Translations under genes and position numbers: made by a program
In this document: in pieces, positions 56,203-63,482 of the stretch
How positions within the stretch are numbered: position 1 is the first letter of the stretch
Layout: every line of letters starts with the position of its first letter
Assembly: GCA_029210645.1 (NCBI GenBank)
Contig: JARGFT010000003.1
Location: forward strand, 1-64,000
Source: Anaerosomatales bacterium
GTDB lineage: Bacteria; Actinomycetota; Coriobacteriia; Anaerosomatales; SLCP01
Reading direction: 5' to 3'
Length of the DNA: 64,000 nucleotides
The notes under the pieces: model-generated
What the model was told of the DNA's origin: nothing
Seen by the model: only the letters and a program-made list of their open reading frames with translations
Database searches by the model: none

Positions 56203-56218
56203 TGTTTCACGTGAAACA
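56203..56218. promoter_or_regulatory. parS site (exact TGTTTCACGTGAAACA)
   Basis: Exact match to consensus parS; extended 20-bp palindrome 56201..56220. Confidence 0.95.
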
Positions 56219-56261: not shown

Positions 56262-56277
56262 TGTTTCACGTGAAACG
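56262..56277. promoter_or_regulatory. parS site (TGTTTCACGTGAAACG, one mismatch)
   Basis: 15/16 match to consensus parS, 59 bp from the first. Confidence 0.92.
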
Positions 56278-59013: not shown

Positions 59014-59148
59014 TTACGCCGACAGGACCTCGCGGCCCTTACGGCGGCGATTCGCGAGTATCCGGCGACCGGCACGCGTCGACATGCGCACGCGGAACCC
59101 GTGCGTCTTGCTGCGCTTGCGGTTGTTCGGCTGATATGTCCTCTTCAC
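59014..59148 (-). CDS. rpmH: 50S ribosomal protein L34
   Basis: Hand translation [44 protein letters not shown]. Confidence 0.97.
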
Positions 59149-59299
59149 GACCTGCTCCTTTGATCCAGCTCCCGAACGGGAGCAAAGCCCGACGATTATA
59201 TGCGGCGCCTCCGTGCGGTGTCAACGATTCACCGCCCCCCGGGGTGGTTCAGCCGATGCTTCGTCGAGCCACGAGGGGGAAACCTCGTTCCGAAGTGTC

Positions 59300-59835
59300 C
59301 TCAAATCTGTGGACAGTGTGGAAAACGCAGCGTGTATGGCTGTTGAACCTGTGGACAAGTCCGACTTCTTCATTGTTTGACCCGATGCCCTTTGCTAGTA
59401 TCTGCCGTGCCCGAGCGTTCTCTCAGTTTCTCGGGAGCACCTTGAAAACACCTGTTCAGAGCGGATGTTGCGCTCCCCCTTTCCAGCTCGGCGCGGAGAG
59501 CGGACTGCTTTCTCCACAGAAGATCGGCCCGCTGGCCGCGTCGTAGGACCTCTATCCACAGCATCGGGTCCACAACGCGAGGTCTTTTCAACAGTCGAGG
59601 AAAGCAGGAGCCGATACGAAAGCCCATACGCTGGCAGCTTGAGGGTTTGCCCGGGCCGATACGGAAAGGTCTGTCCACAGATGTGGAAAGTTCTGTGGAC
59701 AAGGGCGAAAAGACCTTGTCAGGGACGCACGGCCTCGGGAGCCGGGCACGTACCCGCTGGTGGCTACGGCTGTTTACAGGTGTTTAAGGAGTCGGCCGCG
59801 GGCTCGCGGTTGTTGATAAGCATGTGGATGAACCA
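59300..59835. other. oriC: Origin region: DnaA-box cluster between rpmH and the GHKL gene
   Basis: TGTGGACAG 59308, TGTGGACAA 59350, CTATCCACA 59552, CTGTCCACA 59671, TGTGGACAA 59694 and weaker sites. Confidence 0.8.
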
Positions 59836-59864
59836 CCTTTGTGTGAAAAGCGATGGGGGAGAAC

Positions 59865-60731
59865 ATGAAGAGTTTTTTCGACGGCCAGACGGCCACTTCG
59901 GAGGGGGATAGCGGGGCGCTGCACGCATCAGTACTCGTGGTGCCGCCCCCCGACAAGACGATCGGCTCGCCAGAATGGTCTGCGCGGATCGCCGTGTACG
60001 ACGCTCCCGCTGCAGCTCCTCGCACCGAGGAAGTCACCGGCTCGTCCGAGGAAGAGCTCATCGAGCAGATAGCGTCCCGCGCCTTCTCTCACGCACGGGA
60101 CACGGGAGGAGATGTGCCCTACACAGTCATCCGTGAGGTGACGGAGAACTTCATCCACGCTGAGTTCCGGGAGCCTGTAGTATCTATACTAGAGGGCGGT
60201 CGTACGATTCGTTTCGCGGACCAGGGTCCCGGCATCTGCGACAAGAAGCGAGCAGTGCTGCCGGGCTTCACAACCGCAACGGGTCGCATGAAGGGCATCA
60301 TACGAGGAGTCGGGTCGGGCCTTCCCATCGTCAACGACTACCTCGGCTTCTCCGGCGGAAGCCTGGAGATTGACGACAACCTCGGCTCCGGCACGGTCGT
60401 GACCATCCGTTCGTCGTGTCGCGAAGAAGAGACGCCGGATCTTCTTCGCTCACCGGGAGAGGGAGCGGCCGTCGAGGAGGAGTCTCCTGCTGTCTCCGTT
60501 GCCGGCCTCACCCCGCTGACCACCCGCCAGAAACAGGTCCTGTCCCTCGTCCTCGAACTTGGAGAGGTCGGCCCGACCATCGTCTCCAAGGAGCTCTCGG
60601 TAGCGCTTTCAACCGCCTATCGTGACCTCGCGTATCTGGAGCAAGGCGGACTCATCGAGTCAGACGCGTCCGGGAAGCGCGTGCTCACGAGTGAGGGCTC
60701 GGCCTACCTCGATAGTCTGTTCGCCCAGTGA
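59865..60731 (+). CDS. GHKL-type ATPase with C-terminal winged-helix domain
   Basis: N-box-like [14 protein letters not shown]1 FADQGPGI, G2 [18 protein letters not shown]-terminal [57 protein letters not shown] supports ATG 59865. Confidence 0.85.
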
Positions 60732-60748: not shown

Positions 60749-62137
60749 ATGCAAACGTATGACGCAGACCAGATCTGGACCGACGTGCTCGACGTCGTTC
60801 GTTCAGAGCTCAACACCCCTACCTTCAAGACGTGGTTCGAGCACACCTCACCGATGGAGGTGAGGGACGACAGTCTGGTGATCGCGGTGCAGAACGAGTT
60901 CGCCAGGGAGTGGCTCGAGTCGCGCTACTCTGGACTTCTGCGCTCCGCCCTTCTCCAGGTACTCGGCCAGGAGCTTTCTGTGGAGTTCATCGTGCCCGCG
61001 GAGGGTGTCTCGTCTGTGTCCGCGGCTTCGGGCGCGGAGGTTGCCGATGTGATATCGGCCTCAGAACCCGACGCCACCCCGAAGATTCAGAGATCAGAGA
61101 GCGGTGAGTTCAACCCCAAGTACACGTTTGGTTCGTACGTCATCGGTGCGTCAAATCAGTTTGCCCACGCTGCGGCACTCGCGGTCGCCGAGGCTCCGGG
61201 TCGTGCGTACAACCCTTTGTTCATCTACGGAGGGGTCGGGCTCGGGAAGACCCATCTCCTGCAGGCCATCGGGCACTACGTTCAGACGAGCTTCCCCCAC
61301 CTGAAGGTCAAATACGTCTCCACCGAACAGTTCACGAATGACTTCATCAACTCGATCGGAGACCGGGACAAGAAGCGGATCGACGGATTCCGTCGTCAGT
61401 ACCGGACCAACGACGTCCTGCTCGTCGATGACATCCAATTCCTGAAAGGCAAGGAAGGAACGCAGGAGGAGTTCTTCCATACCTTCAACACCCTGCAGCA
61501 AGCGGGCAAACAGGTTGTCTTGTCGTCGGACCGGCCCCCAAAAGATATCGAGAAGCTCGAGGAGAGACTTAGAAGCCGTTTCGAAATGGGTTTGATAACA
61601 GATATCCAACCACCCGACCTGGAGACGCGCATCGCCATCCTCAGGCGGAACGTAGAGGTGCAGAATCTCTCCGTACCCGACGATGTCCTTTCGTTCGTGG
61701 CAGACCGTGTCTCTTCAAACATCCGGGAACTCGAAGGTGCATTGATCCGTGTGATGGCCTTCAGCTCTCTCACCAGGCACCCCGTAGACATCGAACTGGC
61801 TCGTGATGTTCTCAAGGACATCTTCCCAGAGAGATCGAAGCGTCCTATCACACTCTCCACGATCCAGAGAGAGGTCTGTAAGTACTACTCTCTCTCCCAT
61901 TCCGAGCTCGTCGGGGGAAAGCGATCCCAGTCGATCGTCTATCCGCGCCAGATCGCGATGTATCTCGCCCGAGAGCTCACCGAACTCTCACTGCCAGCCA
62001 TCGGGGCAGAGTTCGGTGGCCGGGATCACACCACGGTCATGCACGCGAAAGCGAAGATAGAGAAGCTGATCAACGCTGACCGGGAGGTATACAACCAGAT
62101 ACAGAGTCTCACGAACCAGATCCGGCAGAAGAGCTGA
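60749..62137 (+). CDS. dnaA: Chromosomal replication initiator protein DnaA
   Basis: [67 protein letters not shown]. Confidence 0.98.
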
Positions 62138-62375: not shown

Positions 62376-63482
62376 ATGAAGCTGACAGTCGCCAGAGGAG
62401 AACTCGTGGAGGCCCTCGCGGTGGTAAGCAGAGGACTTTCATCGAGATCGACCCTCCCGATCCTCTCAGGCATCCTCGTGTCGGCCTCGTCAGAGGGGGC
62501 TGTGACGCTCCAATCGACCGATCTCGAGGTGTCGGTACGGAGAAGCCTCCCGTTCGTATCGGTAGAGAGGGAAGGAACAATCGTCGTACCGGGCAAACTG
62601 TTCACCGATATCGTTCGGTCTCTGCCGGAGGCGGCGGTTACCCTCTCGCTGGAAGCGGAGAGTCTCTCGGTGTCATGTCTTCAGTCGTCGTTCGCGGTGA
62701 AGACCCTGCCGGCGGATGATTTTCCCCGCTTCCCTGAAGTGGAGCCGGACAAGTCGATCACGCTCCCGGCTTCGCGAGTCTCGGAGATCGTCAGGCACGT
62801 CGCCAAGGCGGTCAGCAGAGACGAGACGCGGCCGGTTCTCACCGGAGTTCTTCTGTCGGTCGAGGGTAGAACGGTCAGGATGGTCTCCACCGATTCATAT
62901 CGCCTCGCTGTCAAGGAATTGATGATCGAGGGGGGCAGCCTCGAAGACATCCAGGTCGTGGTTCCCGGGAAGGTCATGGAGGAGGTATCCAGGCTCGCAC
63001 CCCAGGGGGAGGACGTGACTCTGGGAATCAGCGAGAACCAGGCTGTGTTCGCCTTTGGGACCACCGAATTCGTGGCTCGGAGGATCGAGGGAACGTTCCC
63101 GAACTACCGCCAGTTGATCCCGAAGGAGAGCGAGACGACCGTCGACGTCTCGCGCGAGGAGATGCTTGCGGCGGTCAAGAGGGTTTCGCTCCTGGCTCAG
63201 CACAACACCCCGCTTCGGGTGACAGTGAACAGCGAGGACCAGACCCTTGGCTTGTCTGCGACAACCCATGACGTCGGAGACGCGTCAGAAGATCTGATGT
63301 CGAAAGTCGAGGGTTCGGACGTTGAAATCGCTTTCAATCACTCGTTTCTGCTCGACGGGCTTCTTGCCGCGGAGGGGGACTCGGTGCGGATCAGCATCGT
63401 GAGCCCACTGAAGCCGGGAGTCATCACCAGCACCGATGATGAAGGATTCCTGTATCTGTTGATGCCGGTGCGGCTCGGATAG
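62376..63482 (+). CDS. dnaN: DNA polymerase III subunit beta
   Basis: MKLTVARGELVEALAVVSRGLSSRSTLPILSGILV; C-terminal YLLMPVRL. Confidence 0.97.
   Translation: MKLTVARGELVEALAVVSRGLSSRSTLPILSGILVSASSEGAVTLQSTDLEVSVRRSLPFVSVEREGTIVVPGKLFTDIVRSLPEAAVTLSLEAESLSVSCLQSSFAVKTLPADDFPRFPEVEPDKSITLPASRVSEIVRHVAKAVSRDETRPVLTGVLLSVEGRTVRMVSTDSYRLAVKELMIEGGSLEDIQVVVPGKVMEEVSRLAPQGEDVTLGISENQAVFAFGTTEFVARRIEGTFPNYRQLIPKESETTVDVSREEMLAAVKRVSLLAQHNTPLRVTVNSEDQTLGLSATTHDVGDASEDLMSKVEGSDVEIAFNHSFLLDGLLAAEGDSVRISIVSPLKPGVITSTDDEGFLYLLMPVRLG

Follow-up and report, generated by a model that had tools for sequence, protein, structure and literature searches.

A GHKL ATPase–winged-helix gene at the head of the dnaA operon encodes a candidate regulator of replication initiation

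The first gene of the dnaA operon in the window, that is, in the whole stretch of 64,000 nucleotides analyzed here, is an unnamed ORF of 288 aa at 59865..60731 on the + strand, which encodes a GHKL ATPase core joined to a winged helix and has 167 distinct homologs. Its ATP site is conserved, it is inseparable from dnaA, and it has been co-inherited with dnaA. The reading that we prefer, to which we assign a probability of about one half, is that its product acts as a nucleotide-switched DNA-binding regulator of dnaA/oriC; a role in replication initiation is suggested by the genomic association. What is known of replication initiation comes from a few model bacteria, each of which has DnaA regulators of its own, and the present gene stands first in the dnaA operon in several phylum-level groups, one of its carriers being the cultured oral bacterium Cryptobacterium curtum. 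These findings suggest an old means of controlling DNA replication that has so far escaped description. Searches of open-access full text turned up no paper that names the gene, which is weak evidence of absence, and no curated family in the libraries searched names the protein. Complete records that are numbered from dnaA place the ORF very last, a position that may have kept it out of sight.

The reading frame starts with the ATG at 59865 and stops with the TGA at 60729-60731. An alternative in-frame ATG at 59853 lies 5′ of it, in an interval (59853..59864, + strand) that also holds the Shine-Dalgarno-like ATGGGGGAG of the preferred start; the latter has a strong Shine-Dalgarno-like GGGGGAG in front and gives the N-terminal MKxFF/Y motif common to the homologs. 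AlphaFold2 modeling on a 44-sequence alignment (mean pLDDT 83.7) predicted a disordered N-terminus (residues 1-37), a beta-hairpin and a helix leading into the GHKL core, a disordered linker and a winged helix. The core (residues 38-184, 59976..60416; this and the following features all on the + strand) is opened by a conserved beta-hairpin, RIAVYDxxxxxPR (59976-60041), and contains an N-box helix with E91, N95 and H98 (residues 86-98, 60120..60158), a G1 box DQGPG (residues 119-123, 60219..60233) and a G2 box GVGSGLP (residues 148-154, 60306..60326); modeled alone, it reached a pLDDT of 91.6 and a pTM of 0.87, with a strand–helix–N-box helix topology. Pfam HATPase_c (PF02518) matched residues 86-182 (E=3.9e-7, 30.9 bits vs a cut-off of 26.4) and was also matched at E≤0.01 by 44/44 diverse homologs. 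Neither Pfam nor NCBIfam placed a HisKA/DHp or sensor domain in the protein, so the GHKL core lacking both, as described in an earlier note on this DNA, was confirmed; no model in NCBIfam, PHROG or PADLOC covered the protein. Beyond a variable linker of low pLDDT (residues 185-216, 60417..60512) lies the winged helix (residues 218-287, 60516..60725) with its recognition helix (residues 248-260, 60606-60644), which was modeled confidently over residues 220-287 (pLDDT about 96). The same note had called this domain MarR-like; the winged helix stands, and the MarR label is only loosely right: Pfam gave the window protein no MarR match, MarR ranked after TrmB and IclR among the homologs, with 14/44 matching it at E≤0.01, and TrmB, IclR and Csa3-type models matched more homologs, or better.

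Comparison of the 167 distinct homologs indicated that N95, H98, D119, G121, G123, G134, G148, G152 and G176 are invariant (167/167) and that E91 is kept in 166. Core length is 146 residues in 154/167 homologs and wHTH length 70 residues in 130/167, the winged helix running to the end of the model in 165/167, and linkers range from 11 to 210 residues. The majority share was 0.72 in the recognition helix vs 0.15 in the linker, and the median pI was 8.2 for the wHTH vs 5.3 for the core. The dN/dS of close homolog pairs, roughly 0.05-0.15, indicated strong purifying selection, which together with the largely constant length of the core excludes a chance ORF. Host-associated Coriobacteriales have the most divergent wHTHs and, often, a long P/Q/A-rich linker; at loci L153-L158 of this group it is a long P/Q/A-rich low-complexity stretch.

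Among known structures, the best PDB match of the full model by Foldseek was DIP2311 (3lmm), aligned over both domains (271 columns, E=9e-7), and the core superposed on 3lmm with a TM of 0.72-0.77, the best among the listed matches, vs about 0.5 for histidine kinases. DIP2311 of Corynebacterium diphtheriae, which we take to be a COG2865-type predicted regulator with the order AlbA_2–HATPase–wHTH, likewise carries a GHKL-like core followed by a wHTH in one chain, but has 477-556 residues vs 288 in the ORF protein and about 15% identity to it. It presumably also has the AlbA_2 domain as an extra; Pfam found no N-terminal AlbA_2 domain in the ORF protein, in which the GHKL core directly follows the disordered N-terminus of the model, and we know of no linkage of DIP2311 to dnaA. 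In PDB sequence searches, the core resembled the GHKL domains of histidine kinases, CheA and MutL. A histidine kinase catalytic domain shares HATPase_c and the N, G1 and G2 boxes with the ORF protein, whereas the latter is without a DHp/HisKA domain, sensor or response-regulator partner and has a wHTH of its own. Csa3/CasR, TrmB and IclR are similar in wHTH sequence only, their sensory part being CARF, TrmB or IclR, respectively, where the ORF protein has GHKL.

The nature of the core bears on the best-surviving alternative, namely a GHKL serine kinase like RsbW, RsbT, SpoIIAB or CapK: the core would phosphorylate DnaA or an unlinked partner, and the winged helix would merely recruit the protein to the origin region. 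SpoIIAB-type kinases have a catalytic Glu and a Mg-binding Asn in the N-box helix, and E91 and N95 of the ORF protein occupy these positions; a GHKL core with the N-box E and N is common to it and the anti-sigma-type kinases SpoIIAB, RsbW, RsbT and CapK, and the core topology also resembles that of anti-sigma kinases. We judge this alternative unlikely but still live, because CapK, a GHKL kinase with an HTH that is encoded upstream of the operon under its control (PMC13373217), can control the operon that it precedes. CapK differs in its HTH-STAS-GHKL order from the ORF protein, in which the wHTH is C-terminal and a STAS domain is lacking. Against a serine kinase, no STAS-domain partner gene was found beside the ORF, whose neighbors are rpmH/rnpA, dnaA and dnaN; NCBIfam spIIAB (TIGR01925) scored 14.5 bits vs a cut-off of 135; and the listed PDB and Foldseek matches were histidine-kinase cores, CheA, MutL and DIP2311, not SpoIIAB or RsbW.

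The phyletic spread of the gene was then determined. Full-length homologs were found in 46/61 first-round genomes, the window's own counted, and homologs occur in 46 of 60 relatives. Taxon names are approximate because several MAG titles are clearly mislabelled, and under these names homologs were present in 123/297 Actinomycetota, in 34/35 and 35/36 genomes of a small phylum titled ANGP1, Armatimonadetes or Bacillota, which is probably Sysuimicrobiota, in 26/250 genomes of a Bacillota-type phylum (15/17 in one of its classes), and in 3/3 genomes of a UBP13-labelled phylum. Every carrier genome has a single copy, double rows in the homolog listing being two pieces of one ORF. A mobile-element origin was rejected, with no homolog among 72,556 plasmid and 50,697 phage records. 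Frequent loss was likewise rejected as a reading of the absences among relatives, since only 3 of the 17 no-match genomes proved real losses on re-examination: 13 were also without dnaA in the assembly, and in one the contig ends beside the locus. In the three true losses (G017, G028 and G033) the rpmH-dnaA interval is intact and the ORF absent, and the gene is therefore not universally essential. Where sampled Actinomycetota and Bacillota-type genomes lack the gene, no trace of the ORF was seen upstream of dnaA.

In the window, the ORF is followed by dnaA (60749..62137, + strand; TIGR00362, E=5e-170) and dnaN (62376..63482, + strand; TIGR00663, E=2.5e-99), and is preceded by the divergent rpmH (59014..59148, − strand). 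Its stop lies 17 nt before the dnaA ATG at 60749, as had been noted earlier; a dnaA start at GTG 60728, overlapping the ORF stop, is less likely, because the nearest relatives conserve the ATG, with its GGGAG, as the start. The earlier note had let its idea depend on homologs being linked to dnaA, and linked they are: dnaA is directly 3′ of the ORF on the same strand for 166/166 distinct testable homologs and at 214/214 loci where both genes are visible. Of four apparent exceptions, three were complete circular genomes whose numbering starts at dnaA, with dnaA at base 14-133 of the ORF's own contig, and one was a contig end. The projected ORF-dnaA gap has a median of 27 nt, with 162/214 loci at 0-50 nt, 12 overlapping and 11 at >100 nt. 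The pair also stays together where rpmH does not adjoin, at 6 of the 94 loci that extend far enough upstream, and in Eggerthellaceae RGIG3135 (L093), where dnaN is inverted upstream and rpmH-rnpA lies downstream of dnaA; a second dnaN break, at L158, was rejected as merely the end of the stretch examined. The ORF and DnaA trees largely agree, 51 of the 62 supported ORF-tree splits being common to the DnaA tree and 4 contradicted.

Such linkage might also be expected of a neighbor with other duties. A conserved gene order is a general feature of the oriC region, which counts against the regulator role, and a regulator of replication-unrelated genes could have been kept beside dnaA in this way, as rpmH, rnpA, yidC and jag are. 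Most loci also conserve rpmH, rnpA and jag, and three relatives do without the gene, both in keeping with this alternative, which we rank behind the serine kinase and hold to be improbable as well: the ORF keeps to dnaA where rpmH or dnaN has moved, it has the same orientation as dnaA whereas the rpmH cluster is divergent, and an unlinked copy was found in none of the genomes searched. An orphan histidine kinase or decayed sensor kinase remnant is very improbable, for although the PDB sequence matches are mostly histidine-kinase catalytic domains, the protein has no HisKA/DHp, its sole invariant His (H98) is inside the N-box helix, and it is intact, under purifying selection and fitted with a DNA-binding domain in place of a sensor.

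The region upstream of the ORF was analyzed for promoters and binding sites. A conserved operon promoter, TTGTTTG - TGCTAGTAT, was located at 59373..59402 (+ strand), about 470 nt 5′ of the ORF, and its consensus GTTGTTG-N17-TGCTAGAATCGGC occurs about 450-490 nt 5′ of the ORF at 31/36 Coriobacteriia loci vs 2/36 shuffled; two of the three gene-loss relatives also show this -10 sequence. Because the promoter sits so far upstream, the ORF falls inside the dnaA transcription unit, 3′ of the DnaA-box cluster. This position and the short gap to dnaA support the co-expression with dnaA proposed earlier, and the two genes are probably cotranscribed. On the − strand, a perfect TTGACA-18-TATAAT promoter is present upstream of rpmH (59195-59224).

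Counted at ≤1 mismatch, 12 DnaA boxes are present in the window, of which 7 form an oriC-like cluster in the rpmH-ORF gap (59317..59831) and one lies in the dnaA-dnaN gap; of the two clusters between which the gene had been said to lie, the first was thus recovered and the second came down to a single box. Across the 500-bp upstream regions of 44 diverse loci, 170 boxes were counted at the same threshold vs 4.6 in shuffles. Within the cluster are a three-box element, CTGTCCACA-GA-TGTGGAAAG-TTC-TGTGGACAA (59671..59702), and paired boxes TGTTGATAA-GCA-TGTGGATGA about 50 nt 5′ of the ORF start (59811..59831). The three-box element recurs as TTxTCCACA-N2-TGTGGAAAG-N3-TGTGGATAA, with a fixed spacing of 22-23 bp, in most of the 44 upstream regions. 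It was rejected as specific evidence for a target of the ORF protein, being present in genomes without the gene too; among the three ORF-loss relatives, one retains it and two do not. Upstream of dnaA (L229, L235, L257 and others), the element is common to distant phyla with or without the ORF. With the DnaA boxes masked, word enrichment yielded no separate wHTH operator in the leader, the enriched words being only DnaA-box-like or promoter-leader, e.g. CTTGAAAA.

Taken as a regulator of dnaA/oriC, the protein would be encoded by the first cistron of the dnaA operon, an ancient single-copy gene, and, translated from the mRNA that also yields DnaA, would act as its nucleotide-switched partner. 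Its GHKL core would bind and perhaps hydrolyze ATP, the nucleotide state would be passed via the flexible linker to the winged helix, and the winged helix would bind DNA, presumably in the origin/dnaA-promoter region. As a result, dnaA expression and/or DnaA assembly at oriC may be adjusted to the energy or cell-cycle state, the direction of the effect being likewise conjectural. The regulator role is favored by a same-strand dnaA adjacency that is universal and survives rearrangement of rpmH or dnaN, by the essentially invariant ATP site, the strong purifying selection and the conserved recognition helix, by the agreement of the ORF and DnaA trees, by the place of the ORF inside the dnaA transcription unit and by the lack of plasmid and phage homologs in the records searched; the leader without an operator, the three-box element of gene-less genomes and the three losses count against it. 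If the role holds, the ORF would offer a single testable entry to the coupling of initiation with energy state in the carrier lineages.

A conceptual likeness exists to the initiation control protein YabA (PF06156), in that control of DnaA-dependent initiation is suggested for the ORF; the two proteins are unrelated, YabA having neither an ATPase nor a wHTH. In a sample of 46 Bacillota-type genomes (G355-G637), YabA scored over the cut-off in 0/26 gene-bearing vs 12/20 gene-less genomes (Fisher p=3e-6, for genomes that are not independent), a contrast that is confounded by phylogeny and is therefore a lead, not proof. We tentatively suggest, as a joint proposal that is possible rather than probable, that several deep Terrabacteria lineages have in this gene an ancestral regulator of replication initiation, namely a GHKL nucleotide switch that brings a DNA-binding domain of its own and is co-expressed with DnaA, and that the gene was lost in the lineages of the model organisms, where unrelated DnaA regulators such as YabA took its place.

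Elsewhere in the window, two parS sites, one perfect and one with 1 mismatch, were observed at 56203-56218 and 56262-56277 between rsmG and jag, a place that the textbook gene order gives to mnmE/mnmG.
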